64,000 nt of DNA from Akkermansia muciniphila (GTDB lineage: Bacteria > Verrucomicrobiota > Verrucomicrobiia > Verrucomicrobiales > Akkermansiaceae). Positions 24,500 through 53,008 of the stretch are shown here, one piece after another. Numbering within the stretch: the stretch's first letter is position 1; the number at the start of each line of letters is the position of its first letter. The stretch lies in NCBI GenBank assembly GCA_945874895.1, contig CAMCIC010000004.1, positions 62,001 through 126,000 of the forward strand. The letters run 5' to 3'. The notes below the pieces were generated by a model that was given only the letters and a program-made list of their open reading frames with translations, was not told the origin of the DNA and made no database searches. The position numbers were made by a program, and so were the translations under genes.

Positions 24500-27400
24500 G
24501 TGAAAAACCAAACTTCCCAAACTTCCCAAACTTCCCAAACTTCCCAAACTTCCCAAACTTCCCGTGCATTCCGTGCTGCGTTCCTCTCCGCGTTATGTCT
24601 CTCCATGTTGGCGATTTGTGCAAGCACCTTGGAGGCCGCCGTCATCCATTGGGGCGCGCCACGTGACATCGCGGGCGATACCGACGTCAGTACTAACGGC
24701 GTGCTGGTGAAAGCCATCGCCAAGTCCGGAAACGAATATCCCACCGTCAATGGCGTCACCTTTTGTCCGGCCTACGGAAACGACACGGTCTCCGGCACGA
24801 ACGCTAGCAACTACGCCACGGGCAGCCTGCCGGTCGGCGGTGGCATCAGCCAGAGTTACGCCACGCTGTTGAGCAAGAACGACTATAATACAGGGACCGG
24901 CTCAACCGTCACCCTGACGATCAACGGGCTGAAAACGGGCTACCACTACGAGATCCAGGTGTGGATGAACGACTCGAGCGCGTCGGGTCAGGGAACTCTC
25001 ACCGTAAAATCTTCGGGCGGCGCGGACCCATGGGTGCAGCTCGACGCCAACAAGACCGGAACCACCGGTGGGCTCGGCCAGCATGCCATTGGCACTTTCA
25101 CCGCGGACGGAGCCAGCCAGACGGTGACTTTCAAAGGCAGCGTCAACGGCATGATCCAGGCCTATCAGGTCCGCCGGGTGCCCGCTCCTCTCGCCGCGGT
25201 GGCGTGGGGCGCATGGAAGGAAATCACCGGCAACACGGACGTGAACACGAATGGCTCGGCGGTGAAGGCCTATGTCTTCGGTTCGGCGTCTCCGGCGGCG
25301 GCCATCAACGGGGTGACCTTCACCCGCTTCGCGGCGCAGTCTGTGGACACCTTGTCCGGTTTCACCACGTCGAGTTCTGATGTGTTTGGTTCGAGCAGCG
25401 CGCCGTATTCGGGCTTCACGAGCGACTACAAGAAGATCCTCGGCAGCGGGGCTTACGGCGGGAGAAACGCATCGATGACTTTGAACAGCCTGACGCCCGG
25501 CCAGTGGTATGAGGTGCAGGTCTGGGTGAACGATTCGCGGGCGCTCGCTGGCGGCCGCACCGTGCGCATCAACGGCTCTGCATTTCTAAACCATAACCCC
25601 GGCGGACCGAGCGACAACCTGGCCTACGAGGGAAACACGGGCCATCACATGACCGGCACGTTCAGAGCCAGCGCGGCCAGCCAGCGGTTTGATTTCGTGG
25701 CAAGCTCCTCGGCGCAAATCAACGGCCTGCAACTGCGCTCGATCCCGGTGGTGGATTCGCTGGCGTTCGATGCGATGCAACGCCGCCAGTTCACGATCAA
25801 CAGCTTCATTGACGGGAAAATGAGCACCACGCAGCGCTTCGAGAAGGTCCACCTCCTTTTCGGCACGGGGCAGATCGCCACGGCGAAAACGGAGGCGCGT
25901 TCCGCCTCGCTATGGTGGGGCGCCGGCAATGAATACACCTTCGATGGGTATCCGGCGATCGACATGGTGATCCGCTGGAAGAAGTATATCGACACCACAT
26001 CACGCAACGCCATCAAGGGCCGGCTGCCGTCCATCAACTATGTGACGCCCGGCACGTCCAATTTGCAGAAGCTGGCGTGGACCATGCGTTTTCTGGGATC
26101 GGAGGAATTCGGTGAGGAAGCATTCCAGCATCCCAGGAATGATTACCGCGCCAGTGACCCGAATTGTCGCAAGACTCTGCTGCAGAGGCTGAAGGACGAG
26201 GCGAACTATGGCTGTCGGGAATTCGCATCCAATGACTACAGCATCCTGAACATCCTGCCTTCTTTGAGCATTGCACAGCTCGCCAAGGACCCTGAGCTGC
26301 GCGCCCATGCCACGGCCAGCTTCCCCGCCATGCTGGCGCAGATGGCCGCCGTGTGGCAACCGAAGGACAATTACATCGGAGTCTGGAGTTGGCGCGATTA
26401 CGAGGACCAGAACGGGAAACTTGGGGTTTTCGGTAGTATGCTGTGGCAGACCTTCGGCAGTTATGTGCGCAGCGGCGAAGCCAAGGCGATGGCACTCCTT
26501 GCGGCCAGCGACTACCGCGTGCCGACGCCGATTCTCCACGCCGCGAATCAACGCTCCACGGTTTACACCTCCCGTCTGTATGGCGGAAGCGCCTCTCAAA
26601 CCGGGTTTGTGAGCGGTGACGATTACATTCTCTTCAGCGCCTGCGACAACGACAACGAGAACAACAACTGGAGCCACCCGTATGGCGTGCGCTGGAGTGG
26701 CATGACAAGCTACTTCTGGCTTGGTGCCTGCTCCTCGGACTACGCGGAGGACATCAGAGACGCCAAGAACCACGGCACCAACAGCTATAACATGGGAACG
26801 GTGCAACACCGCGATTCCGTGCTGTATGCCTTTGACTTCACAGGTCCTTACCCCGCAGCCACCAATGTGCCGTATGCGCAGAGCCAGGTGCCCGGTAGCT
26901 ACACGGCCATGATCAATGATTCCGCCACCGGGCGGATCTATCTGCACTATGGAAGAGTGATGATCGCGGTGACCTCCAGCATTCCATTCAATTGGAATCC
27001 GAACTCGGGCATCTGGTCGGCGCGCCACACTCCCTCTCCCGGTGATTCCGAGTTCCGCGTGGCGGTGGGCGGTGTGGGATATCCGTTGGTTGCTGGGAAC
27101 CCGGCTTACAAGTCCACGATAGACAACGCCAACAACCGCTTTGCCATGGCCATCGAGACGGCGAATCCCACCGAATACGCCGGCGCAACCGCCGCCGAGC
27201 AGCTGGCGGCCTTCAAGGCGGACATTGTGGCGAGCACCAGCATCAGCCATCTCAACGCCTACCCCGCCACCGGCTATTACACCAACCGCCACGGGGACAC
27301 CCTGCAAAAGCAAAGCTATGACGCGTCCGGCACACGCAGACCGGGCTACATCAATGGCGTCTCGGTGGACTACAACAACTGGCCGATCCTCGAGAATCCC

Positions 27401-30400
27401 TGGATGAAGCAGGCCGAAAACAGCGGGCTGGCGACCATCACCGCCGGCGGCCGGCAGACCGTGCTCAATTTTAACAGCGGCGGCATGACCCACAGCGCAG
27501 TCACACCCACCGGTGGACCGCTGCCGCAAGTGGGTTCCGATCCAGCGACCAGCGTCACAACCAACTCGGCGGTGTGCAACGGGCTGTTGGTCTCCCCCGG
27601 ATCAAGTGCGGCCACCGTGACACTCTACTGGGGAACCACGGACGGTGGCGACAACCCCGCCGCCTGGGCTAACAACCAATCGCTCGGCACTCCGGTGGCA
27701 GGCGCATTGGCGACCACGATCTCCGGACTGGCGGGTGGCACGACCTATTACTACCGGCACTTTACGTCCAACACTGAGGGCGATGTCTGGTCCAACTGTT
27801 CCACCTCCTTTCAAACCCTCATCCCACAGACGGTGACCGCCCCTCCCGGAGTTCCAGCTTTGCCCACCACCATCCTCACCGTCGGCTCCGTGCCACTGAC
27901 CTGGGCTGCGGTTGCGGATGCGACGAGCTATAACATCAAACGCGCCACCACCAGTGGCGGACCCTACACTACCATCAAGACCGCCCAGGCCACGGCCAGC
28001 TACACGGATACTACGGCGGTCAACGGCACCGTTTATTACTACGTCGTTTCCGCCGTGAATGCGGGCGGGGAAAGCGTGAACTCCGGGGAGTTGAAAGCCA
28101 CCTCGGCGGTCGTGCCCGCTGCTCCCACCGGTGTGGCGACGTCCATGGGCTACATGTATGCCCGCATTTCCTGGACCGCCACGCCCTGGGCCGCGACTTA
28201 CACGGTGAAGCGCTCGCCAACCAGTGGCGGACCCTACACTGTGATTGCCTCCGGATTGACGAGTCCCGTTTACGATGATCCGACGGCGGTGAACCTGAGC
28301 ACTTACTACTACGTCGTCTCGGCCACGAACGTCGCGGGCGAGGGAGCGAACTCCAGCCAGGTTTCCATCACCGTGAACGTGGCCAGTTATATCAACCAGC
28401 TCTCAGGAAACTGGAGCACGAACACTTGGTATCCAAATCCTCCGGGAACTCCGGTCTCCGGCACCACCACGATCATCGATTTTGGAAACAGCGCGGCGAT
28501 TTCCAGCAACAACGACATGGGGAGCTTCACTATCAACAAGCTTCGTTTCATGGATCAAGGCGTGACCCTCAACGGCAATGCCCTGCTCTTCAGCGGGAGC
28601 AACCCCACGGTGTCCAGTTTCAACAACGTGGCCAGCAGCATCGCCAACGCCCTCACGCTGGGCGCGACCACCACCTTCGATGTGGCGACCAACGTGCTCA
28701 CGGTCAACGGAGTCATCAGCGGCACCGGCGGACTGATCAAGACCGGCAATGGCACGCTGGTGCTGGGCGGCATCAACACTTACACCGGCAACACGACCAT
28801 GGGCAGCGGCACGCTTTCCCTGACAGCCAATGCGCCCGGACTGAAGAGCCTCATCTTTGGCGCGGCTCAGGCCAGCCCCAATACCGCCACCCTGATTGTC
28901 TCGGCAGACGCCACCGCCACCAGCCTCACCGCCTGGACGAACACCACCGCATCCAACTCCCTCTACATCGGAGCAGGCAAAACCCTGACCGTGAATGGCG
29001 CGGTGAACATCCACACCACCGGCTCAACCGGCACGAGGCTGGTCTTCAACCGGACTGGTGCCGTGCCCACATCCGCATTCACCGTCAATAACAGCGCCGC
29101 CGATTTCCTCTTCGCTCAGGCTACGGATACCGCTTCCACACGCATCAACACTCTCGACATGCGCAATGTCGGCACCTTCACCGCGAACGTCGCCAACTTC
29201 CGGAACGGCTGGTCCACGACAGTCAACTACGCAACGCCCGGCACGAACACTCTGTATCTTGCCACCAACAACACCATCACCACCGCAAGTGGCGGCACCC
29301 TGAGCGTGGGCGACACGAACATGAGCGGCGGTGGTGGCGGGGCCAGCACCCTCTATCTGGGCAGCGGTAACAACACGATCCAGTCCAATACCATCGCGGT
29401 CGGACGGAGCATGACCATTGATGGCTCCACGCCCACCGGCCGGATTCTTTTCAACGGCACAACAGGCAACCTCACCTTGCGCGGTTCCGCCGGTGGCTCC
29501 ACCGCCGTCACGAACTTCTACGTCGGCATGCACACGGACACGGGCTCGGCGCACCCGGACTCCAAACGCATCGGCCTCGTGGACCTCACCGATGGCACGA
29601 CGACCGGAGCCATCACCAACCTTTATTTGGGTTACAACACCCAGAACACGAACGCGGCAGGCGATGCCGAAGGAACCTTCCTGCTGGGAGGCAGAGCCAG
29701 CAGCCTGTCGGTTTCAAATCTCTATCTCGGCTATTCCACTGTCGCATCCAGTACCAATTACTACGCCAAAGGTGAACTCGATCTCAGCGACGGCACGTTG
29801 AATGTCACCGGCAATATCACCATGGCCTACGACGGTGCCTCTGGTGCCGCCGCGGGCATGGGCGGCACGCTCCTCCTCAGCGGCGGCACACTCACGGTGG
29901 GCGGAAACATCGTCGCTGGTGGTGCCAGCGGGGTTTCTTCCCTCACGCTGAATGGCGGCACGCTCGACATGACCGGCGGAGCCATCGGCAGCGCCACCAA
30001 CCCGGTGGACTCCCTCGTCTTTCAAAGCGGCACACTCCAGAATGTCGCCTCCATCAATGGCAGCGCGGGCCTTACCCAAACGGAAGCGGGCATGCTCGTC
30101 CTCAGCGGCAACAATACCTATGCCGGAAGGACCACCGTCGCGGGCGATACCGTGCAAGTCACCGGCACGCTGAGCGGCCCGGTCACGGTGAATGCCGGGG
30201 CCACCCTTTCCGGCAGCGGCACCATCGGCGGCGCTGTCATCGCCAATGGCGAACTGGCACCCGGCATCAATGGCGTCGGCAGACTGCAAATCAACAATGC
30301 GCTGACACTCGGATCCGCCAGCACCACCACAGTCTTCACAAACCGCACGGCATCCCCTAACAGCACGGGAGTCGGCGGGCTCACTACGATCACCTATGGC

Positions 30401-33400
30401 GGCACTCTCATAGTGTCGGATCTCGGTGGCGGGCTTGCCGTGGGGGACACTTTTGTCCTCTTCTCTTCCGGCAGCTATGCGGGTTCGTTCTCAGCCTTGG
30501 ATCTCCCAGCCTTGGGCGCGGGTCTGGTTTGGGATACCCGCAAGCTCTCGGTGAACGGCAGCATCGCAGTCTCTGTTGCGCCCGTCGTGACAGCGGTTGC
30601 CGGAACCGCCCAAGTCACCTTGAATTGGACCGCCATCCCCGGCGCGACCAGCTACAACATCAAGAGGTCATTGGTGAGCGGCGGCCCCTACACCCTCATC
30701 GCTTCCGGCGTGACGACGACCAGTTATACCGACACCAACCTCGATCCCTCCACCACCTATTACTACACCGTTTCCGCGGTGATCGCGGCCGTGGAAGGCG
30801 TCGATTCAAACGAGGTTTCCGCAGCCACCGCCGCCGGATCGATCGCCCGATACTGGGACACGAGCAGCACCGCCGGACTTCAGGGCGGAGCCGGCACCTG
30901 GAACACCGCCACCGCGGCATGGAGCAATGGCACTGGTGGAAACAGCCTGCTCCTGACCTGGCGTGACAACGTACCCGCCCTGTTCCAAAGCGGAACCAAC
31001 ACGGTCACGGTAAGCGGAACGATCGCTGTGGGCTCCATCGCCCAGTCACTCAACGGCACCAGCACCACCATCAACGGCGGCACCTTGCAACTCAACGGCA
31101 CGGGCGGAATCAGCAACGGAGTCTCCAGTGGAAACCAGTCGCTCACCATCAGCTCCGCGCTGGTCCTCAACTCTGCCACTTTCCCGGTCAACACCCAGCA
31201 GCCGATCAATCTGAACGGCGCGATGAGTGGATCCGCTGACTTGATCAAGACCGGTCCTTCCACCCTCACTCTTGGTGGAGCAAACACGGTCGCTGGCGAT
31301 GTGGTTCTCGACGCCGGCACGCTTTCCTATGGAAACAGCGCTTCCAAGGTGGAGGCGCTAACCTTCGGCGCGGCTCTGGGAAGCACCAACTCCAGCACCC
31401 TCAATCTGGCAGGAAATGTTACCGCCACCAGTCTCTCCGTGCGAAACAACAGCGTCGCCAACAACGTCATCTCCATCGCGTCCGGCAAGGTCCTCGCGAT
31501 CAACGGCGGTCTGACCATGAACACCGTGAGCGGCGGCACCGCCAACCTGGTCGTCAGCGGCGCGGGAGCGATGACGATCAGCAACCCCGCCGCCACCATC
31601 CTCATCGGCGCGACGAGTGATGCGAATACCCGCACCTTCAACCTGGACATGAGCGGACTGACCGGCGGCTTCACCACCCAGGTCGCGAACTTCTACGTCG
31701 GCAGGGCTACGGCCAGTGCCAACAGTGTTCCTAATGCCACGGTCAAACTCGCACCCAGCAGCAATATCTCCGCAGTCAACTTCAGCATCGGCGACGACAA
31801 CGGCAACGGCGGCAACGGCGGTGGTCAATCCACCACCGTGACGCTGGCCGGCGGCACGAATTTCTTCAAAACGACCACCCTCACGGTCGGGCGCATCAAA
31901 TCCGGTACCCAAACGCTGAACTTCGCCTCCGGCGGCGGCACTCTCGCCCTATCCGGCACGACCAGCGGCGCACTCGGAACGATGTATGTCGGCTACAAAC
32001 CTCACACCGGCAGCAGCAGCAACGTCACTGGTGTTGCGGATTTCTCCAACGGCACGGTCACGGGATCCATCGGCAATCTCTACGTCGGCCACATGACCTC
32101 ATCCCAAGGCAGCAACACTCCGAAAGCGGTCGGCACCTTCACGCTTGGAACAAGCTCCGCCAACAACCTGACGGTGACCAACCTGAACATCGGCACCTTC
32201 GTCGGCACCACTGTGCCGACATCCACCAAATATTCCGACGGCACGGTGAACCTCAAGGGCGGACAGTGGACGGTCACCACGGTGGACATGACCTCCGAGC
32301 AGTATAGCTTCGCCCGGCTCAATATTACCGGCGGCTCGATGGCCGTCTCCAACGTCATTACCGGCGGCCCCGGTGGCAATGAAGCGCTCACGCTTAACGG
32401 CGGCACGCTCGACATGACCGGCGGTGCCATCGGCGACGCCACCAACACCGTCACCACGCTCAATTTCCAAAGCGGAACTCTGAAGAACGTCACCACGATC
32501 AATGGAACCGCAGGCCTCACCAAAACGACGGCTGGCACGCTCACCCTAGATGGCACCATGGGATACACCGGTGTCACGACCATCAGCGCAGGCACCTTGC
32601 GGGTCGGCGCGGCGAGCGGCACGAATACCACCACCTCGCTCGCCACTTCCAGCAGCATCGTCAACAATGCCACGCTCATCCTCCGCCGCACCGATGCCGC
32701 CGAAGTCGATGTCGCAGGCAGCATCAGCGGCACAGGCAGCGTCCTTTACGAAGGCAGCGGCACCATAAACCAAAGCCGCTACACCGGTGACAGCGCCAGC
32801 ACCTACAGCGGCGCTACGTCAATCAGCAATGCCCGCGTGAACCTGACCACCGCCACAGGTTTCGGCAGTGGTGCCGTCACCATCAACAGCGGTGCCACCG
32901 CCTTCATCAACGGCGCAGGCACCGTGGCGAACCCCTTCACCCTCGCCGGCAACGGTTGGATCGAAACCGCCGGACAACTCGGTGCCCTACGACTGGCCGC
33001 CGGCAGCGTTTTGACCGGAGCCATCACCCTCGCCGGCAACACCCGCATCGCGGTCAACACCGCGGGCACCGCCACCATCAGCAGCCCCATCAGCGGTGCC
33101 TTCGACCTCGAAGTCGGCGAAGACTCGGCCGCCGGTATGCTCATTCTCACCGGCGCGCACACCTACACCGGCAACACCACCATCAGTGCGGGCACACTTG
33201 TAGTCGATGGCGTTCTTGCCTCGGGTGGCGGCGCGGTGACGGTAGGCGGGTCGGGAGTTCTCACCGGCACCGGTACGATCTATCGTCCGGTCATCATCAA
33301 CGGCCGTCTGGTCAACGGCATCGGAGGTGCAGGATCACTGGTTTTTTCCAACACGCTCACCCTGGCGGCGGGCAGCAGCACCACGATTTCCCTCAACCGC

Positions 33401-35131
33401 ACGGCCACTCCGAACTGCAGCCAACTCAGCAGCAGCGGTGCGATAACCTTCAGCGGCACCCTCAACGTGACCAACGCCGGAGAAACCTTGCAACTCGGTG
33501 ATCGCTTCGTGCTCTTCCCGACCGGCGGTCACTCGGGTTCGTTCAGTGCGATCAACCTGCCTTTGCTGGACTCGGGTTTCGTTTGGGACACCAGCAAGCT
33601 TTACGTGGACGGCAGCATCGAGGTGAAACGCGGCCTCGTGATCAACGCCAATCTCAAGCTGCATTTGGACGCCTCGAATCCATCCTCCCTGGTATTGGAT
33701 TCAAACAACCGGGTCAGACGCTGGAACGATGCCAACGGCGGCGCGAACTATGTCGCGCAGGATTCAGGCGCACAACAACCCACGTTAGTGGTCGCCCCCA
33801 CGCTCGGCCGGAAAATTATGGACTTCGGTCCTTTTGTGGCGGGATCCACCGGACAATGGCTCCAGTTCAAGGATGGCACGGGTGCCAACCTGAACCTTTC
33901 GAGCATCCGGTCGGTTTTCATCGTCATGAAGGGCGGCAATCACATGCTGGGCGACGACAATAATTACCACTTCCACCGGGCTCCTGACTATGCGTCAGCC
34001 ACCTGCCCTCTCTGGAGAAGCAGTTCTGCATCGGCAAATATCAGAAACGGCCAAACCTACCTGAATGGTGGTGCAGCGCCGATCGACGGGACCACGACGC
34101 CAATGCCCTCTGGCTATTGGCTGGCGAGCGTCATCACAAGCGGACCGGTCGAGGCGAGCCGACTGGCCTGTGACAGGAACGGCCGGACCGGCGGACAGCA
34201 AATTGCCGAGTTGCTGATCTACGACCGGGTCCTGACGGACAGTGAACGCCAAAGCACCGAAGCCTACCTGATGGCCAAGTGGTTTTCCGCAAACACGCCG
34301 CCAGTGATCACCGTGCCGCCAGCCATGACCGTGGAAGCGACGGGAACCAATGGAGCCGTCGTAAACTTTGCCACGACCGCAGTGGACCATACCGGCGGAT
34401 CCATCGCCACGGTGAACAGCCCGCCCTCTGGATCCACCTTCCCGATCGGCTCCACCCCGGTGACCGTCACCGCGACCGATGCCGAGAGATACTCTGCAAT
34501 CACGACGATGACCGTCACAGTTCAAGACAGCATCGCTCCGTCCATCACCGTGCCACAGAACATCACCGTGGGGGCAAGCGGTCCGGTTGGAGCAGTCGTG
34601 ACCTTCACAACCTCCGCCATCGACACGGTGAGCGGAAACTGCACCACGTCAAACACCCCGGCCTCCGGATCGACCTTTCCAGTCGGCACGACCACGGTGA
34701 GCGTAACGTCCAGCGACGTGGCGAACAACAGCGCGAGCAGCTCCTTCACGGTGACCGTCACGCCCATCGTCTCCGGCTACGCCACCTGGCAATCGGCCAA
34801 TGGGGCGGGCGGCCAGACCGTAGATCAGGACCACGACAACGATGGTGTGAAAAACGGGATCGAATACTTCATGGGCGCATCCGGCACCACCTTCACCGCG
34901 AATCCATGCGTCGTCAACGGAGCCATCACCTGGCCGATGGGAGCCACCTACACCGGCACCTACGGCACCCACTACATCGTCCAGACCTCCACTGACCTCA
35001 TCAACTGGACCCCCGCCACCGTCGGCGTGGGAGCCGGGTTTGTTGCTATCACTCCGGCCACCTCTGTCTCCTACACCCTTCCAGCAGCTGCCGGCAATCT
35101 GTTCATCCGTCTGCTCGTCAATCCGAACTGA
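24500..35131 (+). CDS. Giant exported multidomain protein with beta-strand repeats (3543 aa)
   Basis: The GTG start at 24500 leads into six QTS repeats, a signal peptide ending TLEAA (about residue 47), and two related beta domains (47-230 and 231-414). Residues about 415-1000 form a helix-rich region that looks enzymatic but matches no family I can name. Three fibronectin-III-like domains follow (about 1000-1295). Next come long tracts of autotransporter-associated beta-strand repeats (KTGNGTLVLGGINTYTGNTT), interrupted by another FN3 (about 2024-2112). The C-terminal part has a LamG-like domain (about 3047-3265), two HYR domains (3265-3424), an Asp-rich motif DQDHDNDGVKNGIEY (about 3442) and a terminal beta domain. 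No autotransporter barrel or PEP-CTERM anchor is visible. It probably acts at the cell surface on polysaccharide. GC content is clearly above that of genes outside the island. Confidence 0.88.
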   Translation: MKNQTSQTSQTSQTSQTSQTSRAFRAAFLSALCLSMLAICASTLEAAVIHWGAPRDIAGDTDVSTNGVLVKAIAKSGNEYPTVNGVTFCPAYGNDTVSGTNASNYATGSLPVGGGISQSYATLLSKNDYNTGTGSTVTLTINGLKTGYHYEIQVWMNDSSASGQGTLTVKSSGGADPWVQLDANKTGTTGGLGQHAIGTFTADGASQTVTFKGSVNGMIQAYQVRRVPAPLAAVAWGAWKEITGNTDVNTNGSAVKAYVFGSASPAAAINGVTFTRFAAQSVDTLSGFTTSSSDVFGSSSAPYSGFTSDYKKILGSGAYGGRNASMTLNSLTPGQWYEVQVWVNDSRALAGGRTVRINGSAFLNHNPGGPSDNLAYEGNTGHHMTGTFRASAASQRFDFVASSSAQINGLQLRSIPVVDSLAFDAMQRRQFTINSFIDGKMSTTQRFEKVHLLFGTGQIATAKTEARSASLWWGAGNEYTFDGYPAIDMVIRWKKYIDTTSRNAIKGRLPSINYVTPGTSNLQKLAWTMRFLGSEEFGEEAFQHPRNDYRASDPNCRKTLLQRLKDEANYGCREFASNDYSILNILPSLSIAQLAKDPELRAHATASFPAMLAQMAAVWQPKDNYIGVWSWRDYEDQNGKLGVFGSMLWQTFGSYVRSGEAKAMALLAASDYRVPTPILHAANQRSTVYTSRLYGGSASQTGFVSGDDYILFSACDNDNENNNWSHPYGVRWSGMTSYFWLGACSSDYAEDIRDAKNHGTNSYNMGTVQHRDSVLYAFDFTGPYPAATNVPYAQSQVPGSYTAMINDSATGRIYLHYGRVMIAVTSSIPFNWNPNSGIWSARHTPSPGDSEFRVAVGGVGYPLVAGNPAYKSTIDNANNRFAMAIETANPTEYAGATAAEQLAAFKADIVASTSISHLNAYPATGYYTNRHGDTLQKQSYDASGTRRPGYINGVSVDYNNWPILENPWMKQAENSGLATITAGGRQTVLNFNSGGMTHSAVTPTGGPLPQVGSDPATSVTTNSAVCNGLLVSPGSSAATVTLYWGTTDGGDNPAAWANNQSLGTPVAGALATTISGLAGGTTYYYRHFTSNTEGDVWSNCSTSFQTLIPQTVTAPPGVPALPTTILTVGSVPLTWAAVADATSYNIKRATTSGGPYTTIKTAQATASYTDTTAVNGTVYYYVVSAVNAGGESVNSGELKATSAVVPAAPTGVATSMGYMYARISWTATPWAATYTVKRSPTSGGPYTVIASGLTSPVYDDPTAVNLSTYYYVVSATNVAGEGANSSQVSITVNVASYINQLSGNWSTNTWYPNPPGTPVSGTTTIIDFGNSAAISSNNDMGSFTINKLRFMDQGVTLNGNALLFSGSNPTVSSFNNVASSIANALTLGATTTFDVATNVLTVNGVISGTGGLIKTGNGTLVLGGINTYTGNTTMGSGTLSLTANAPGLKSLIFGAAQASPNTATLIVSADATATSLTAWTNTTASNSLYIGAGKTLTVNGAVNIHTTGSTGTRLVFNRTGAVPTSAFTVNNSAADFLFAQATDTASTRINTLDMRNVGTFTANVANFRNGWSTTVNYATPGTNTLYLATNNTITTASGGTLSVGDTNMSGGGGGASTLYLGSGNNTIQSNTIAVGRSMTIDGSTPTGRILFNGTTGNLTLRGSAGGSTAVTNFYVGMHTDTGSAHPDSKRIGLVDLTDGTTTGAITNLYLGYNTQNTNAAGDAEGTFLLGGRASSLSVSNLYLGYSTVASSTNYYAKGELDLSDGTLNVTGNITMAYDGASGAAAGMGGTLLLSGGTLTVGGNIVAGGASGVSSLTLNGGTLDMTGGAIGSATNPVDSLVFQSGTLQNVASINGSAGLTQTEAGMLVLSGNNTYAGRTTVAGDTVQVTGTLSGPVTVNAGATLSGSGTIGGAVIANGELAPGINGVGRLQINNALTLGSASTTTVFTNRTASPNSTGVGGLTTITYGGTLIVSDLGGGLAVGDTFVLFSSGSYAGSFSALDLPALGAGLVWDTRKLSVNGSIAVSVAPVVTAVAGTAQVTLNWTAIPGATSYNIKRSLVSGGPYTLIASGVTTTSYTDTNLDPSTTYYYTVSAVIAAVEGVDSNEVSAATAAGSIARYWDTSSTAGLQGGAGTWNTATAAWSNGTGGNSLLLTWRDNVPALFQSGTNTVTVSGTIAVGSIAQSLNGTSTTINGGTLQLNGTGGISNGVSSGNQSLTISSALVLNSATFPVNTQQPINLNGAMSGSADLIKTGPSTLTLGGANTVAGDVVLDAGTLSYGNSASKVEALTFGAALGSTNSSTLNLAGNVTATSLSVRNNSVANNVISIASGKVLAINGGLTMNTVSGGTANLVVSGAGAMTISNPAATILIGATSDANTRTFNLDMSGLTGGFTTQVANFYVGRATASANSVPNATVKLAPSSNISAVNFSIGDDNGNGGNGGGQSTTVTLAGGTNFFKTTTLTVGRIKSGTQTLNFASGGGTLALSGTTSGALGTMYVGYKPHTGSSSNVTGVADFSNGTVTGSIGNLYVGHMTSSQGSNTPKAVGTFTLGTSSANNLTVTNLNIGTFVGTTVPTSTKYSDGTVNLKGGQWTVTTVDMTSEQYSFARLNITGGSMAVSNVITGGPGGNEALTLNGGTLDMTGGAIGDATNTVTTLNFQSGTLKNVTTINGTAGLTKTTAGTLTLDGTMGYTGVTTISAGTLRVGAASGTNTTTSLATSSSIVNNATLILRRTDAAEVDVAGSISGTGSVLYEGSGTINQSRYTGDSASTYSGATSISNARVNLTTATGFGSGAVTINSGATAFINGAGTVANPFTLAGNGWIETAGQLGALRLAAGSVLTGAITLAGNTRIAVNTAGTATISSPISGAFDLEVGEDSAAGMLILTGAHTYTGNTTISAGTLVVDGVLASGGGAVTVGGSGVLTGTGTIYRPVIINGRLVNGIGGAGSLVFSNTLTLAAGSSTTISLNRTATPNCSQLSSSGAITFSGTLNVTNAGETLQLGDRFVLFPTGGHSGSFSAINLPLLDSGFVWDTSKLYVDGSIEVKRGLVINANLKLHLDASNPSSLVLDSNNRVRRWNDANGGANYVAQDSGAQQPTLVVAPTLGRKIMDFGPFVAGSTGQWLQFKDGTGANLNLSSIRSVFIVMKGGNHMLGDDNNYHFHRAPDYASATCPLWRSSSASANIRNGQTYLNGGAAPIDGTTTPMPSGYWLASVITSGPVEASRLACDRNGRTGGQQIAELLIYDRVLTDSERQSTEAYLMAKWFSANTPPVITVPPAMTVEATGTNGAVVNFATTAVDHTGGSIATVNSPPSGSTFPIGSTPVTVTATDAERYSAITTMTVTVQDSIAPSITVPQNITVGASGPVGAVVTFTTSAIDTVSGNCTTSNTPASGSTFPVGTTTVSVTSSDVANNSASSSFTVTVTPIVSGYATWQSANGAGGQTVDQDHDNDGVKNGIEYFMGASGTTFTANPCVVNGAITWPMGATYTGTYGTHYIVQTSTDLINWTPATVGVGAGFVAITPATSVSYTLPAAAGNLFIRLLVNPN
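24509..24562 (+). repeat. Six tandem copies of a 9-base unit in the signal peptide
   Basis: CAAACTTCC is repeated six times without error and encodes (QTS)6 just before the hydrophobic part of the signal peptide. Because the unit is nine bases, gain or loss of copies keeps the frame and only lengthens or shortens the N-terminal region. Confidence 0.9.
29942..30001 (+). repeat. Copy 1 of a 60-base intragenic repeat
   Basis: These 60 bases, encoding LTLNGGTLDMTGGAIGSATN, match 32387-32446 with 55 identities. The repeat is part of a larger duplication at protein level inside the beta-strand repeat region. Confidence 0.8.
32387..32446 (+). repeat. Copy 2 of a 60-base intragenic repeat
   Basis: This segment encodes LTLNGGTLDMTGGAIGDATN and corresponds to 29942-30001, 2.4 kb upstream. 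Recombination between the copies would delete one block in frame. Confidence 0.8.
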
Positions 35132-45979: not shown

Positions 45980-48900
45980 ATGAATCATCCTTCATATTTA
46001 CGTGTTTCCGCCCTAAAAACCCGCCAGCACAAAGGCTTTACGTTGATCATCACGATCAGCCTGCTGGTTCTATTAACTTTAGTAGCGATCGGCTTGTTGT
46101 CCCTGTCCACGGTCACCTTGCGCACTTCATCGCAGGGATACGCGATGTCGATCGCTCGCAGCAATGCTCGTATGGCTTTGATGTTAGCGCTGGGCGAGTT
46201 ACAGAAATCAATGGGGCCAGACCGCGCGATTTCCGCCACTTCCGAAATTCTTTCGACGAATCCTGCGAAGCCCAACTTGATGGGAGTTTGGGATTCCTGG
46301 GACTCGAATCCTAACACCTCGTTGAACTACAACACCGAAAAAACCTCCCGATTTCGTCGATGGCTCGTATCCGATGCTGACCCGATGGCGACCACAGCGC
46401 GCAACTACGCCACGACTGGAACCACCAGCAATGCCATCACTCTCGTGGACAACGGAACTCTGGGATCAGGAGTCACGGATGCCGATAAGGTGAGAGCAGG
46501 CTTGGTGCCGATCAGCCCGAATGGCAACCGTGAGGGATCCTACGCATGGCACGTCTCTGACGAATCCGTGAAGGCTCGCATCAACAGCTATCGCGATCTC
46601 GCGCAAAATGATACTCTGGCGAAACGACGCGCTCTGCTGGCAGGTCACCGCCCTGATTCACGTTTGATCAAGTCTCGCGACGGCAGCCTCCTGAGCTTTT
46701 TGCCTAACGATCAAAATGCAGCTGGTTTGGTCACGGCTCGTGCCGCCGAGGGCAAACTCGTTGACCTGAATCAAGCGGACCTACTGGGTAAAAGTCGGCA
46801 GACGGGCAAGTTCCGCAATATCGTGACCCCCTATTCGATGGGGCTCTTGACCGATGTGCGCAACGGTGGACTGAAGCAGGACCTTTCGGCACTATTTGAG
46901 ATGGCCACAATGCCATCTGAATACAATGGTCGGCGTCTGTATGAAACCACGCACCGTATCACAGGCGTGTCGGATCCTTACTGGTCTTCCTTGCAGTCAT
47001 ACTACTCCATCTATCGCGATGTCACATCGAGCGATGCATCTCCCACCTATTATCGTCCACCCCAGGAATCCGTTGCTCCGGGTTCTTACAGCGTTCCAAG
47101 ACGATTTTTTCCCGCACCTGTCATTGCCAAAGTAGAAATTCTCTTCAGCTACATCACGCGCGACTCCCATTCCAACTGGGTCAGCAGTCTGAAAACAGTG
47201 AGTCCGGAACACACACGCATGGGGCACTTGCTCTACACTCCTCTTGTCACCTTGCACAATCCCTACAACATCAATCTACAATTCGATGAAATGCAGGTGG
47301 TGATTCGCAACGTGCCCGTGGCATTCAATTTTTATGTAAACAATCAGCCGCAGAGCCGCGATTTGGTCTCCATCAACGAGATGTTTGTCAATAGCAGTCA
47401 GAAAGGAGAAAAATCCTTCGCTTTGAATATCGCGAATTGGACCAGTCCGACCTCACGCGATTCGACGCCCATTACGTTGCGACCAGGGCAGACCCTAGTG
47501 TGTGGGCCCTTTATCTCGGCTGCTTCGAGCTTCTCTAACTCTCAAGGCACGCCGATTTTCGATTGGCAAAACAACCTCACCGGTGTGGATCAGAATGGCA
47601 GCGTCACCACTCCCGTTCCCTCCAAACCCGGCTTTCTTGGCAAAGGCGTTGGTTTTGACATCGACTGGATCACACCACCTGATTTCAACGGCGGACAGTC
47701 TACGGACAACAACATGGGCGTGCTTGGTCTGAAAGATACCGACCTCGTTCATATGGAATACGCCATCAGACAACCGAGTCGTGGTCAGCGCGATCGCTTT
47801 GATGTGCAGGCTATGATCACATCGAGAGGAAGACAGATGTCTTATGGTGGACTTACGTTTGTTTACAATGACTCCTCGACCTTAGGTCGATACTTCAATG
47901 CTGTGCATCGGTTTCCGCGCACCGGAGCTTTTCCTGCGGCACAGGCTTATCACTCGAATACCACCCCCATTTCGGCTCAAGGAAATGTCTTATCCGTAGG
48001 GCTCTTTTCCGCCTATGCGAGAACCACCAATGGAGGCGTCTATGAAACCAATCAACGCACTCCCGCGGGTGGTGCTTTGAACGTATTGAGAGACGGTCGC
48101 CTCGCTGGAAAACCCATGATGCACCACAATCCTGCACGTCCAGTGGTCATGATGGACTACCGGACTGAAGTGCCGGGGATGCAGTCGCACGAATTGAACT
48201 TTGTCCCCTTGCCGGGCCATGTCGACGATATCTTTGAAATTGATGCCGCCAATCGCAACAATGTGCTATCCGGCAACACCACCCAGCGGGGTGTAAAGTC
48301 AGGGGTTTATCTCGAACTGCCAACCGGTCCCATGCTGACCATTGCAGATTTCCGTCGTTCGAATGCACTGACCTCAGCCTACTTGCCGAACTTTGTGCAA
48401 CCCATAGCGAACTCGAGTGTGTCGCCTTTCATGAGCACTTCAAAGGTTTTGGAAACAGGCGTCACTTCGTATGCGCTGTTGGATCACAGTGTTTTGGCAA
48501 ACTATGCTCTGTATGACCGTTTTTATTTCTCCAGCATTGTGCCCGTCGGTTCCAAACAAGCCAACACGGTGTTGACTGACTTCCTCGACAATCGTGTGCC
48601 TCTGCCGAACCAGGCTTTCGCTCCCTACCTGCCTGCTGGGAAGTCCAAAAATGATGCGATAACTGACCTCCTCGCAACTGGTCGTCCGTCCGCCAATGCC
48701 TATCGCCTCGCCGCGGAATATCAGATGGTCAAAGGAGCCTTCAACGTCAACTCGACATCTGTATCCGCATGGGCCGCAGTGCTGGGTTCGATGCGCAATA
48801 CGCCCGTCCCCGTGATGTGGTCCCGTAACGGTCAGATGGAGACCAAAAACACCACGAACAACCCGATCGCTCCGATGTCTTTGACCAATGGTGCTCTCGC

Positions 48901-49540
48901 AACGGATGCGGCGGTAAATATCGCACAGACGGACAATTCCCGCACCAACCAATGGAATGGTTTCCGTGAACTGACCGATGCGCAAATCGAGGGTCTTGCG
49001 CAAAATATTGTCGATCAAGTCCGCACACGTGGTCCGTTTTTGTCGATGCATGAATTTGTCAATCGTCAGATCGGTGCTAACTCCGCCCTGACTCGTATGG
49101 GGACCCTGCAAGCCGCTTTGGAGAATTCCCAAGTCAACAATCTGGTGTTCAACACCCAAGTCCCCATCGCCTCCGCTAACGTGACTGACGCATCGCTCTA
49201 TCGCAATCGCACGGTCGAGGCAAATCTAGGCAACCCCGCGGAAGGAGCCCCGGGATGGATTACGCAGGGGGATCTCATGCGAATCATCGAGCCACTTGCC
49301 ACCGTGCGTTCCGATACCTTTGTCATCCGCGTCTGTGGAGAAGCATTCAACGCGAATGGCGTGGTCAGTGCGAGAGCCTTCGCCGAAGCAGTCATACAAA
49401 GACTCCCCGAGTATCTGAATCCCGTTGATCGCCCCTCGGTCAATGTCTACAGTGTTGCCACGGCCCATCCGACCAATCGTGCTTTCGGACGTAGGCTCGC
49501 TGTGGTATCTTTCCGCTGGATCTCGCAAGAGGAAGTTTAA
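45980..49540 (+). CDS. Verru_Chthon cassette protein A-like pseudopilin giant
   Basis: The 1186-aa protein has a prepilin-like N-terminus: KGFTLIITISLLVLLTLVAI, then ArAlm-type text RSNARMALMLALGELQKSMG. This matches the Verru_Chthon cassette protein A family found only in some verrucomicrobia. Cleavage after the Gly of KGFTLI is expected, but the Glu at +5 of true type IV pilins is Ile here. The remaining 1100 residues are polar and exported. Protein A normally belongs to a four-gene cassette (A-D) of pilin-like proteins; no other prepilin motif follows here. The ATG at 45980 is preferred to a TTG at 45950. Confidence 0.82.
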   Translation: MNHPSYLRVSALKTRQHKGFTLIITISLLVLLTLVAIGLLSLSTVTLRTSSQGYAMSIARSNARMALMLALGELQKSMGPDRAISATSEILSTNPAKPNLMGVWDSWDSNPNTSLNYNTEKTSRFRRWLVSDADPMATTARNYATTGTTSNAITLVDNGTLGSGVTDADKVRAGLVPISPNGNREGSYAWHVSDESVKARINSYRDLAQNDTLAKRRALLAGHRPDSRLIKSRDGSLLSFLPNDQNAAGLVTARAAEGKLVDLNQADLLGKSRQTGKFRNIVTPYSMGLLTDVRNGGLKQDLSALFEMATMPSEYNGRRLYETTHRITGVSDPYWSSLQSYYSIYRDVTSSDASPTYYRPPQESVAPGSYSVPRRFFPAPVIAKVEILFSYITRDSHSNWVSSLKTVSPEHTRMGHLLYTPLVTLHNPYNINLQFDEMQVVIRNVPVAFNFYVNNQPQSRDLVSINEMFVNSSQKGEKSFALNIANWTSPTSRDSTPITLRPGQTLVCGPFISAASSFSNSQGTPIFDWQNNLTGVDQNGSVTTPVPSKPGFLGKGVGFDIDWITPPDFNGGQSTDNNMGVLGLKDTDLVHMEYAIRQPSRGQRDRFDVQAMITSRGRQMSYGGLTFVYNDSSTLGRYFNAVHRFPRTGAFPAAQAYHSNTTPISAQGNVLSVGLFSAYARTTNGGVYETNQRTPAGGALNVLRDGRLAGKPMMHHNPARPVVMMDYRTEVPGMQSHELNFVPLPGHVDDIFEIDAANRNNVLSGNTTQRGVKSGVYLELPTGPMLTIADFRRSNALTSAYLPNFVQPIANSSVSPFMSTSKVLETGVTSYALLDHSVLANYALYDRFYFSSIVPVGSKQANTVLTDFLDNRVPLPNQAFAPYLPAGKSKNDAITDLLATGRPSANAYRLAAEYQMVKGAFNVNSTSVSAWAAVLGSMRNTPVPVMWSRNGQMETKNTTNNPIAPMSLTNGALATDAAVNIAQTDNSRTNQWNGFRELTDAQIEGLAQNIVDQVRTRGPFLSMHEFVNRQIGANSALTRMGTLQAALENSQVNNLVFNTQVPIASANVTDASLYRNRTVEANLGNPAEGAPGWITQGDLMRIIEPLATVRSDTFVIRVCGEAFNANGVVSARAFAEAVIQRLPEYLNPVDRPSVNVYSVATAHPTNRAFGRRLAVVSFRWISQEEV

Positions 49541-49552
49541 TTGTTGTTTATT

Positions 49553-50260
49553 ATGATTCGTGTTTTTTTCATGATGCTGTGCCTGCCGCTCGTAGGTTTT
49601 TCTCAAGATGCAGGCGTTGCGCTTACCATACGCGCCGCTTATCACAATCCCGTAAAACCCCTTGCGGAACTTTTCATTGCGGATCAAACGGGGGCGATCG
49701 TGCCGCTGAACTTGGTGGGGGAAATGCTGTCCTACCCTCAGGTCACCGTTGCCACGAATGGCAATCTCGTGCTCTATAAGGAGAAGATGGTTGACCCCAA
49801 GAATCCACAGGCATCAGTGGCCGCCACTGCCAAGATTCCCGCAGATTGGAAAAAAGTGATCGCTTTGATTTTTCCGGCTGCAGCCGCTGGTGATGAGTCA
49901 TCCTATCGCATGCTGCTCATCAATGATGCTCCGACCGCATTCAAAAAAGGGGAATCACGCATTGTCAATTTGACTCAAGTCGAAACAGCAGTGCAAGCGG
50001 GCGAGCACAAGGTGCCCGTTCCATCTGGCAAAGTGACCGACCTGCCCGCCGTAAAACAAGTCAATGATTTCAATATGGCGCAAACCAATTTTTACTACAA
50101 GGATTCCGATCAGTGGATTCCTTTCACTGAACGTCAATTGCAGTTTCTGGATTCAACCAAACGAATTTTCCTCATTTACTTGACTCCGGGCTCAACCCAA
50201 CCCTTCGTCACCACCTTAGTGGACAATACACCAGTGCAGGTTCCACCACCTTCTCGCTGA
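49553..50260 (+). CDS. Secreted protein of unknown function, 235 aa
   Basis: A signal peptide (MIRVFFMMLCLPLVGFSQ) is followed by a mature part of about 215 residues. It contains ALTIRAAYHNPVKPLAELFI and ends TLVDNTPVQVPPPSR. The composition is beta-strand-like, with no Cys and no motif I recognise. The start lies 12 bases after the Verru_Chthon A stop, so it is co-transcribed with it. A role as periplasmic partner of that protein is a reasonable guess. A TTG at 49541 is in frame but less likely as start. Confidence 0.75.
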   Translation: MIRVFFMMLCLPLVGFSQDAGVALTIRAAYHNPVKPLAELFIADQTGAIVPLNLVGEMLSYPQVTVATNGNLVLYKEKMVDPKNPQASVAATAKIPADWKKVIALIFPAAAAGDESSYRMLLINDAPTAFKKGESRIVNLTQVETAVQAGEHKVPVPSGKVTDLPAVKQVNDFNMAQTNFYYKDSDQWIPFTERQLQFLDSTKRIFLIYLTPGSTQPFVTTLVDNTPVQVPPPSR

Positions 50261-50297
50261 TCCATTTGCGAAGGGAAAACGAATTTTTTCTCGCAGA

Positions 50298-50325
50298 TTG
50301 ATCAATCCATGCGATAGTCTACATT
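50298..50325 (+). promoter_or_regulatory. Possible promoter for the subtilase gene
   Basis: TTGATC (50298-50303) and TACATT (50320-50325) lie 16 bases apart, each matching four of six sigma-70 consensus bases, with the subtilase ATG 21 bases downstream. The match is moderate and the gap (86 bases) could also be read through from upstream. Confidence 0.3.
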
Positions 50326-50346
50326 ACTCATTGTTGAGTCACTTCT

Positions 50347-51945
50347 ATGCCCACACGCATAAATCCATGGATGATCGGTTTCGGGCTCATGCTGGCCATT
50401 GTGGTCGGTTGGATGCTCGGTCGATCGCCCTGGGATGATGAAACGAAGCCCGTTTCAGGTGAACTCGTTGTTCGTAATGAACCGCTGGTGGAACGCGAGT
50501 GGGGCGAACTGACTTCCTCTTCGACTCAAAGGTCGGGATATCAGACTGACGAAGAAGCCATTTCCGAAGGAGCTTTGCCAGGGCAGCGAACATTGCGTTT
50601 CACAACTGCGGAGGAGATGATGTCCTTCATCGCAAGGGTAGGGGATCGCATTCGCGTGATGGATCGAATCGACTCTCTATTCACGCTGCGTGTCGGCTTT
50701 CTGGATCACGATGAGTTGCGTGATCTGCTGAATGGCTCAGAGCAAGAGGGATTCATTTTCCCTGCCTACACGCCAAATCCATCAGGCGGCATGGTACAAG
50801 CGGATGCGATCCCATTGGGCAACCAATTGTCGCAATGGTTGGGATTGAAACAACTGGATCTCAATCTGGGCAAAGGAGTGAAAATCGCCATACTTGATAC
50901 AGGTGTCGTCCCTCATCCTGCCTATGGCAGTGTCAAAAATGTTTTCATCGTTCCGGCATCGGACAATTATGGCGAATGGAATGGACACGGCACGGCAGCT
51001 GCGTCACTCATCTTGGGCAATTCCAGCACGGTGCCCGGCGCTGCACCCGGTGCTACGCTGACGTCATGGCGTGTCGCGGATGACTCGGGATCATCGGACA
51101 GTTGGAGGATAGCCCAAGCTATCATTCAGGCTGCTGATTCGGGACACCAGATCATCTCCCTTTCCATGGGTTCCTACGGTGATAGCCTCATGCTGCGTGA
51201 TGCGGTTCAATACGCACAGAACAAAAATGTGTTACTCATTGCCTCTAGCGGCAACGATGGGTTAACGCAATCTGCCTATCCTGCCGGTTATCCCCATGTG
51301 CTCTCCGCCGTGGCGGTTGACGCACAAAACAATCATCTGCTTTTTTCGAATCAATCCGAGCCCTCGGCTCTCGCAGCGCCGGGCTGGGGTGTTACGGCCG
51401 CCTATCCTGGAGAAAAGGTCACTTCGTTTTCCGGCACAAGTGCCTCCGCTCCCATATTGGCGGGCACTGTCGCTGCCGTAATGTCCGCCAAAGGATACTC
51501 TGCGCAACAGGCGCTCGCAGCAATCTATCAAATGACCAACGAAGCCGGTGCGGCAGGTCCCGATCGCTATACCGGTTCTGGTGCTGTGAATCTCGGTCGT
51601 ATTTTGCAAAGTGACAACGCCCCGATCACTGATGCAGCAGCGGCATCCAACTACATCACACCTCCGCAGGCCGGCGCTGTCGCTCAGGTGCAGGTCAACA
51701 TCCAAAATCAAGGAACCACCACTCTGAGCAATGTCCCTGTTACGGTTACGACTCCGACTGGTGTGACTCAACTCACCGTTTCCTCATTGGCTCCAGGTGC
51801 TGTGAAAAGTTACAACATCGGATTGTCGAATGCGTTGTTTGCCAACGGAAAATCGGTGCAAGTCACAACTCAGATCGGCAGTGCCGATGCCGTCCCATTC
51901 AACAACCTTCGCACGACAACCTACAGCCCATCGCCGGCACCCTGA
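50347..51945 (+). CDS. Membrane-anchored subtilisin-like serine protease (S8)
   Basis: The 532-aa protease has an N-terminal anchor (MIGFGLMLAIVVGWMLG, about 8-25) and a propeptide-like region. The S8 catalytic domain follows, with Asp184 in AILDTGV, His214 in NGHGTAAASLI, the oxyanion Asn in SSGNDG and Ser365 in GTSASAPILAG. All triad residues are present. The C-terminal part (about 430-530) is a CARDB-like beta domain (VNIQNQGTTTLSNVPVTVTTP). It should act outside the inner membrane. Position suggests it may process the Verru_Chthon A protein or other exported products; this is inference. It converges with the PpiC gene with one base between stops. Confidence 0.92.
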   Translation: MPTRINPWMIGFGLMLAIVVGWMLGRSPWDDETKPVSGELVVRNEPLVEREWGELTSSSTQRSGYQTDEEAISEGALPGQRTLRFTTAEEMMSFIARVGDRIRVMDRIDSLFTLRVGFLDHDELRDLLNGSEQEGFIFPAYTPNPSGGMVQADAIPLGNQLSQWLGLKQLDLNLGKGVKIAILDTGVVPHPAYGSVKNVFIVPASDNYGEWNGHGTAAASLILGNSSTVPGAAPGATLTSWRVADDSGSSDSWRIAQAIIQAADSGHQIISLSMGSYGDSLMLRDAVQYAQNKNVLLIASSGNDGLTQSAYPAGYPHVLSAVAVDAQNNHLLFSNQSEPSALAAPGWGVTAAYPGEKVTSFSGTSASAPILAGTVAAVMSAKGYSAQQALAAIYQMTNEAGAAGPDRYTGSGAVNLGRILQSDNAPITDAAAASNYITPPQAGAVAQVQVNIQNQGTTTLSNVPVTVTTPTGVTQLTVSSLAPGAVKSYNIGLSNALFANGKSVQVTTQIGSADAVPFNNLRTTTYSPSPAP

Positions 51946-51952
51946 ATCAGGG
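51940..51952. other. Second palindrome built on convergent stop codons
   Basis: CCCTGAATCAGGG is a perfect inverted repeat centred on 51946. It contains the TGA of the subtilase (51943-51945) and the TGA of the PpiC-type gene on the other strand (51947-51949). Both proteins end Pro-stop. The arrangement is the same as at 4438-4450. Confidence 0.5.
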
Positions 51953-53008
51953 CATGGCATCTAACACGGCAGGATAAAGATGGATTTCTTGCCGATGGTT
52001 TTCGCGCATCGTGGAAAGTATTTTTTGCAAGGCAGTTGGACGTTTTTGATCTGACAACGCTTGGCGAATTTCTTCACGGCATTCTTCCAGCGTTCGTACG
52101 ACGAGCGGACGGTGATCCATCACTTCCGCGAGATGCCAACCCCATTTTGTTTGAAAGAGCGTCGCTTGGTTCTTGGGCATGGCAAAGACAGGCTCGGCAA
52201 AATCGGAGGGCATTCGCATGCGGGACATCCAACCAAGTTGTCCGCCCGTCGCCTTAGTCCGCTCGTCCTCACTGCTTTCCTGAACGATCTGTTCAAAGGT
52301 TTTTTCTTTCTTCTGTAGGCTGGCCAGCGCCGCATCCGCTTGATTCTTGATGACTGCGGCATCCTTGCCCAGAGTCGACCAGAATGCATGTCGCACCTGT
52401 TTCATCTCAGGCATGACCCATTCATTCTGGTGCTTCCGATAGGACTCGGCGATTTCTTCCTCGCTCACTTTCAACAACGGTTGCAGATGTCGATCCAGAT
52501 ACTTCTCCATCTCGATGACCGCCGCCACGCGCAATCTCAGTTCTTCCTCACTGGCTATTCCCTGATTTTTCATCGACTCCTCCATCTCGCTGCGCGAAGG
52601 AAATCGTGCGAGCCATTGACGCAACCGCTCACTGATTTCGCCATCCGTCGCTCGTTGCGCTTCTTGATCAGCGGCGATCAAAGTGCGGATCAGTTGATGA
52701 TCCACCAATTCCGTCAGAGCGGCCATTCTGATGGAACGACGTTGCTCGACACTTGTTTCCTGCCATTCTTTGCCCTCAAGCCACAGTTTTTCTCTCGCCG
52801 CACGATCGACTTGGGTTTTGGTGAGTGGTCGACCTAACACAATCGCAACGATACCCTCTTTCTTGGCATGTTCGATGGACTCTTCACTGGTAGGATTGCG
52901 ACGATTGATGACTTTTCTCAAAGGACCAGTATACGCAAAAAGATCAATGATCACATACACGATCAACACGGAACAGATGGTAAGAAGCGCGCGATGGGAG
53001 ATTTTCAT
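51947..53008 (-). CDS. Membrane-anchored PpiC/parvulin-type peptidyl-prolyl isomerase
   Basis: The 353-aa protein has an N-terminal membrane helix (about 7-26), a helical SurA-like chaperone region (about 50-190) and a parvulin-like domain (about 200-310). That domain shows QVRHAFWST, FEQIVQESSEDERTKATGGQLGWMSR, FAEPVFAMPKNQ and TKWGWHLAEV, close to the rotamase consensus. It probably helps fold exported proteins at the membrane surface. Its ATG overlaps the cutC stop (ATGA, 53005-53008), so it is the last gene of a four-gene operon. It is the second foldase of this kind in the window. Confidence 0.85.
   Translation of the reverse strand: MKISHRALLTICSVLIVYVIIDLFAYTGPLRKVINRRNPTSEESIEHAKKEGIVAIVLGRPLTKTQVDRAAREKLWLEGKEWQETSVEQRRSIRMAALTELVDHQLIRTLIAADQEAQRATDGEISERLRQWLARFPSRSEMEESMKNQGIASEEELRLRVAAVIEMEKYLDRHLQPLLKVSEEEIAESYRKHQNEWVMPEMKQVRHAFWSTLGKDAAVIKNQADAALASLQKKEKTFEQIVQESSEDERTKATGGQLGWMSRMRMPSDFAEPVFAMPKNQATLFQTKWGWHLAEVMDHRPLVVRTLEECREEIRQALSDQKRPTALQKILSTMRENHRQEIHLYPAVLDAMP

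Follow-up and report, generated by a model that had tools for sequence, protein, structure and literature searches.

GspK (XcpX) is the minor pseudopilin at the tip of the T2SS. Passages of PMC5207764 describe the pilins of its family as larger than their sister minor pilins, as having a pilin sheet into which a helical domain is inserted, and as lacking Glu5, an absence that fits the first filament position only. According to a portion of PMC6211770, the T2SS tip complex of P. aeruginosa binds substrates. In the Akkermansiaceae, a pilus-like system is proposed to attach to glycans, namely the MUL2 type IV-like pilus (Amuc_1098-1102); the portion of PMC13174399 that deals with it describes no giant pseudopilin. 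A second large pseudopilin without Glu5 is known from the Verrucomicrobiota as Verru_Chthon protein A and is defined by the curated model TIGR02600. The literature searched contains no mention of Verru_Chthon or of TIGR02600/02598/02596/02599.

The locus described here lies within a 64,000-nucleotide stretch of DNA (the window), from the first letter of which all positions are counted. Its three co-directional ORFs are situated where the preliminary description had placed them: 45980–49540 (A), 49541–50260 (P), and 50347–51945 (a subtilase). The conserved unit is the giant GspK-type pseudopilin together with P and excludes the subtilase. The best explanation, to which we assign a probability of about 60%, is that A is a filament tip of the GspK class, that P is its dedicated partner, and that the six such pairs of this genome are exchangeable tips.

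Protein A, GspK, and Verru_Chthon A

A is a giant GspK-type pseudopilin of 1186 residues (45980–49540, + strand), an assignment based on its ORF, its cleavage motif, a structural model, and the residue at position +5. It starts with ATG 45980, while the ORF itself opens at TTG 45950. The prepilin motif, G|FTLIITISLL, has its predicted cleavage site at residues 19/20 and Ile at +5; together with the N-terminal helix it spans residues 19–78 (46034–46213, + strand), as delimited by the sequence, the DSSP assignment of the model, and hhalign. In alignment A4, which comprises 82 A proteins from the window genome and from 80 fetched stretches drawn from 150 listed A matches (fragments excluded), −1 is Gly and +1 is Phe or Tyr in 82 of 82 sequences. 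The residue at +5 varies among Ile, Val, Ala, Ser, and Leu and is Glu in 0 of 82. The preliminary description had singled out the missing +5 Glu. The observation stands, but it is not odd: because the GspK class is large and without Glu5, as stated in passages of PMC5207764, the absence is the rule and is to be expected in A.

The model of A, built with 82 sequences (pLDDT 89.7, pTM 0.88), consists of a helix at residues 21–78 and one large ectodomain of ~1100 residues (DSSP). A plain Foldseek search with this model gives no PDB match at E ≤ 0.001. When Foldseek's 1000 top chains are aligned with VIA-align, one match is outstanding, that to GspK of the ETEC GspK-GspI-GspJ complex (3ci0_K, Z 11.0), in which 243 of 280 residues align with an rmsd of 3.4 and 15% identity over model residues 48–1186, the last of the chain. 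The second-best row has a Z of 3.8. As the match covers nearly the whole of GspK, the extra mass of A would be made up of insertions. The match comes from VIA-align alone, on a predicted model, which counts against the GspK reading. The earlier view of A as a large pseudopilin is supported.

The most variable part of A, by block conservation, is a middle that is beta-rich in secondary structure (residues 521–720; 47540–48139, + strand), in which the mean share of the commonest residue is 0.19–0.28. The four best-conserved blocks, with mean shares of 0.60–0.62, are located at both ends of the protein, and the conserved C-terminal region (48680–49537, + strand; FNVNST ... RGPFLS ... RSDTF) constitutes profile A3. 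On the model, residues 521–720 are predicted to be an insert in a GspK-type core. Conserved ends combined with a variable middle fit an arrangement in which the ends dock in a common machine and the middle meets differing partners.

At the level of sequence, the N-terminus of A matches Verrucomicrobial GspK (hhalign E 1.7e-8, probability 95.4), and beyond it no significant similarity to GspK is found (best E about 0.02). A profile search of A against PDB sequences returns chance-level rows only. The NCBIfam T2SS_GspK model gives weak N-terminal matches to two of the five other paralogues in the genome (E 0.0021 and 0.0051) and to one canonical Verru_Chthon A protein (E 2.1e-4). Window A has no match at E ≤ 1 to NF037980 (cut-off 130 bits) or to Pfam T2SSK, and the five other paralogues reach at most 17.7 bits with the curated GspK model (cut-off 130). 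With the fold and without a match to the curated models, A resembles GspK and may share its function, but it lies outside the curated T2SS GspK family. It shares with GspK/XcpX the fold, the large size, the lack of Glu5, and the N-terminal profile match. It differs in its length, which is roughly fourfold that of GspK and includes an extended variable insertion, in occurring in six copies, and in being encoded beside a secreted partner and outside any gspH-I-J-K cluster.

The same evidence bears on the proposal that A has no place in a filament and is a periplasmic scaffold or enzyme held in the inner membrane, with P as its subunit. A conserved ectodomain of ~1100 residues could indeed act alone, and no matching pilin gene is found nearby, but the invariant −1 Gly with +1 Phe/Tyr and the structural match to GspK argue for prepilin processing and placement at a tip, and this proposal is improbable.

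The preliminary description had identified A as Verru_Chthon protein A. Curated membership is rejected: TIGR02600 matches window A with E 9.6e-4 and 17.8 bits over the first 59 model positions only, and the best of the six genome paralogues scores 25.2 bits, against a cut-off of 332.3. A scan of window A alone against NCBIfam gives no match at E ≤ 1. True members of TIGR02600 score above the cut-off, up to 1704.5 bits, in 7 of 288 genomes of the phylum, and in most of 14 stretches around these canonical genes, one to three small prepilins adjoin. In the same seven genomes, no A of the window family is found at E ≤ 1e-10 among the matches listed. In profile-profile comparison with 11 canonical Verru_Chthon A proteins, the A set matches over the first 73 columns (E 1e-12, probability 97.8) and at a motif in the middle (E 3.8e-6, probability 87), and a weak C-terminal motif is not significant (E 0.0095, probability 4). 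Because of the similarity at the N-terminus and in the middle, the two look like distant relatives. Of the idea that the locus is a divergent version of the Verru_Chthon system, what survives is this distant homology, while the curated cut-off is failed. Glu5 is missing in canonical Verru_Chthon A too (10 of 11 proteins, those with a readable motif). The GspK reading, which explains this absence in A, is suggested for Verru_Chthon A as well.

Verru_Chthon protein A had been expected in a four-gene cassette with proteins B, C, and D, of which only A was seen. This holds for the vicinity, as no cassette genes are found near A in 85 loci, where most stretches span about 6 kb downstream and 1 kb upstream of A, but not for the genome, which contains six A paralogues. 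None of the five further paralogues lies beside cassette genes, and a hidden, complete cassette with another A elsewhere in the genome is rejected. Across the 85 loci, no small Glu5-type pilin occurs within 7 kb of the A start, the nearest being at least 7.5 kb away. A TIGR02598 search of the genome gives no match, and neither does its control. In place of B, C, and D, A has the partner P.

Partner protein P and the A-P unit

P (239 residues; 49541–50260, + strand) is a predicted secreted protein of two beta-sandwich domains, on the basis of its model and a signal peptide-like N-terminus. Its start is TTG 49541 or, alternatively, ATG 49553. TTG 49541 abuts the stop codon of A and is closely preceded by the purine-rich AGAGGAAG; the abutment and the upstream AGAGGAAG suggest that translation of A and P is coupled. 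In a scan for promoters and terminators, the counts are near those of shuffled sequence.

Neither Pfam nor NCBIfam has a family that P matches at E ≤ 1, in agreement with its earlier designation as a signal-peptide protein of unknown family, and a profile search against PDB sequences returns only chance-level rows. Its model (pLDDT 92.2) is closest among solved folds to the extracellular domains of the mammalian peptide transporters PepT1 and PepT2 (PepT2, Z 13.1 over 187 residues), and single AlgF domains align with Z values of 9.2 and 7.7. The likeness to these proteins consists of the two-beta-sandwich fold only; P has no sequence similarity to them and is no transporter.

Searched at full length, the window genome yields six long A relatives and no more, and P lies directly downstream of A in all six. 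The P family of this genome is divergent (230–317 residues), with four invariant alignment columns among the six copies (M1, F9, N143, and P231 of the window copy). In the order, the A C-terminal profile is found in 50 of 142 genomes and the P profile in 29 of 142. Each is present in up to 18 copies per genome, and in many genomes the counts are nearly equal (12/12, 13/13, 18/18).

By coordinates, a listed P is directly downstream and on the same strand in 111 of the 150 A matches listed. Genus g2 contributes 19 of the 150, none of which is paired; outside g2, 111 of 131 are paired, and 11 of the remaining 20 unpaired rows reveal a weaker P once the sequence is fetched. In named genomes, P is present at 72 of 80 loci and lacking at 5, and at the other 3 the stretch ends early. 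The named contigs with A-P belong to the Akkermansiaceae (Haloferula, Luteolibacter, Roseibacillus, and lake MAGs), and outside family f1, 29 of 58 listed A matches adjoin a listed P.

Across the phylum, 89 of 387 genomes contain A and 65 contain P; 63 have both, 26 have A alone, and 2 have P alone. P is thus present in 63 of 89 A-positive genomes versus 2 of 298 A-negative ones, and A-P is a phylum-wide two-gene unit. The 26 genomes with A and without recognizable P (E ≤ 1e-5) comprise 14 of genus g2 and 12 others; A can therefore exist without a recognizable P, which counts against the best explanation. Placement in the GspK class gives a structural identity to an expanded, phylum-wide family that has carried no informative name.

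Filament machinery and the proposed role of the pairs

The window genome encodes one T2SS GspK among the matches listed, with adjoining pseudopilin-like genes, as well as five T2SSE-type assembly ATPases. The preliminary description had advised a search for a prepilin peptidase, and one is present at L026:8057-9220 with both domains. Its catalytic domain scores 25.8 bits, just under Pfam's 26.5. As an ordinary GspK is present, A is extra to GspK and not its replacement; by the same token, A is not needed for the GspK role, which counts against the best explanation. T2SS GspK is found in 118 of 142 genomes of the order and does not discriminate. In genus g2, A is found in 20 of 23 genomes listed and PF21687 GspK in 0 of 20 genomes listed.

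If A is a GspK-class tip, the prepilin peptidase of the genome would cut A, which would then be inserted as the first subunit of a T2SS pseudopilus or of a type IV pilus-like filament, with a conserved GspK-like frame supporting its large and variable middle. P would be exported via its signal peptide and most likely bind A, either in the periplasm or at the tip of the filament, as a dedicated cap or adaptor. With six A-P pairs available, a single filament machine, or a small number of them, could take up different tips for different substrates, which would probably be glycans or glycan-processing proteins. The pair would then be a candidate for the end that binds substrates in the pilus-like systems by which the Akkermansiaceae are thought to catch complex glycans.

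A more far-reaching and only tentative extension is that the Verrucomicrobiota possess a shared pseudopilus or type IV pilus machine on which tips of the giant GspK type, between 1 and 18 in a genome, are exchanged, each with its own P and each recognizing a different polysaccharide or glycoprotein. If true, filaments would serve the Verrucomicrobiota as the SusCD repertoire serves the Bacteroidota, which would explain how the former seize large glycans for uptake.

The genes adjoining the pairs are mixed and not uniformly glycan-related, which counts against the glycan reading. Among 44 co-directional third genes, a set that includes L237 and L239, added as subtilase loci, S8 proteases are commonest (7), followed by cytochrome c (5) and DUF1080 (4, one conserved locus). 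The 42 control ORFs, from 151 in other loci, contain fewer glycan-type families; as the sets are neither large nor independent, no weight is put on this comparison.

The subtilase

The third gene of the window locus (50347–51945, + strand) encodes a membrane-anchored S8 subtilase of 532 residues. It was previously called an anchored S8 protease, with which its N-terminal hydrophobic stretch and its match to PF00082 (E 1.9e-34, 119.7 bits, cut-off 21.8) agree, placing it in Peptidase S8. The catalytic Asp184, His214, and Ser365 are kept in 5 of 5 aligned orthologues. The catalytic domain resembles that of the mycosin-type S8 subtilases of the T7SS (TIGR03921, E 1.6e-40, 139.3 bits), with a score under that model's cut-off of 278.75, such that the protein is not a member.

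In the window genome, the subtilase has one homologue only at E ≤ 1e-40 and follows the window pair alone, five of the six pairs being without it. Its homologue group has 31 matches in 24 of 36 genomes, and the neighborhoods of 25 were covered, all but those of G095, G123, G135, G096, G125, and the second match in G074. Among the 25, the order A-P-subtilase occurs in 7, the subtilase lies just upstream of A in 2, and for the other 16 the fetched stretch contains neither A nor P. The three-gene order that the preliminary description proposed to look for in relatives does recur in other genera (g1, g3, and g4), but it is lacking in the five other copies of the genome and in the close relative G134, where A (79% identical) is paired with P and the subtilase (75% identical) is encoded elsewhere. 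The G134 subtilase gene lies 1.8 kb from a contig end. Overall, 9 of 80 named loci carry the subtilase. It is rejected as a member of the core unit, on account of the five pairs without it and the 16 of 25 homologues found elsewhere.

All nine A-P-linked subtilases fall within one group of 14, one of two groups, and all A proteins linked to a subtilase fall within one clade of 19 (FastTree). The linkage label changes 5 times on the A tree versus 8.7 times in shuffles, and 0 of 500 shuffles are as low. This clustering in both trees argues that the link between subtilase and pair is real and probably inherited, with absence or loss in several lineages. The support for the two-group subtilase split is 94/94, just under the tool's star.

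A rival reading makes the pair a T2SS substrate adaptor, in which A would take the place of GspK at the tip and, together with P, bring in the neighboring gene's product, here the subtilase, for export. The reported binding of T2SS substrates by tip complexes (a portion of PMC6211770), the adjacency of an A-P pair to 9 of the 25 covered subtilase homologues, and the position of one pair near a T2SS minor pseudopilin cluster in the window genome (L024) are in keeping with it. Nonetheless, it is unlikely, given the N-terminal membrane anchor of the subtilase, which is unlike typical T2SS cargo, the homologues without A or P in the fetched stretch, and the cytoplasmic enzymes, e.g., PEPCK and DAHP synthase, among the third genes of other pairs.

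The preliminary description had instead envisaged a maturation protease that processes the large pseudopilin; P could be its substrate as well. The retained active site, the recurrent gene order in three genera, and the clustering of linked proteins in both trees all suit such a protease. However, with one homologue for six pairs the processing cannot be general, and G134 keeps pair and subtilase in separate places; cleavage of the pseudopilin is thus conceivable but unsupported, and a dedicated maturation role has a low probability. Under the reading of A as a GspK-class tip with P as its partner, the subtilase is best regarded as an accessory gene of one pair, the product of which may trim something at the window locus. 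The gene that follows it (51947–53008) is on the opposite strand.

Third genes and arrangements of the A–P pair

The two-gene unit comprises A, the giant GspK-type pseudopilin, and P, its small secreted partner. In four genomes, one such pair is followed by a gene for a 1200-aa DUF1080-type protein (stretches L099, L108, L120, and L123), which is another conserved third gene.

Stretch L146 (genome G009, contig C13) harbors a tandem A-P-A-P array, possibly the product of a duplication. Stretch L142 (G103:C51:7798–8649) encodes an A with 57% identity to the window copy but lacking P, followed by a 507-aa ORF that, judged from its start, reads like a sulfatase. The T2SS GspK of this genome is encoded on the same contig as this P-less A.

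T2SS pseudopilins and A-like proteins

In the window's genome, a T2SS minor pseudopilin cluster (L024:1478–5516, contig C2), consisting of H-, J-, and K-like genes and a subsequent 414-aa ORF, lies ~3.5 kb from one A–P pair. Its GspK matches PF21687 (E 4.1e-13).

Among the matches listed, genomes of genus g2 (e.g., L162–L166) encode 1–4 copies of A-like proteins, for which a profile search mostly found no recognizable P; PF21687 GspK was likewise not found in these genomes among the matches listed. A may be the sole K-type pseudopilin in g2.

Very long reading frames

Very large ORFs (800–2100 aa) often adjoin canonical Verru_Chthon cassettes (L186–L199) and may encode cassette substrates or surface proteins. 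The window itself contains two very long ORFs, at 13909–20700 and 24500–35131 (2263 and 3543 aa, respectively), the former preceded by ORFs for what we would guess, from sequence alone, to be a sigma factor and a regulator.
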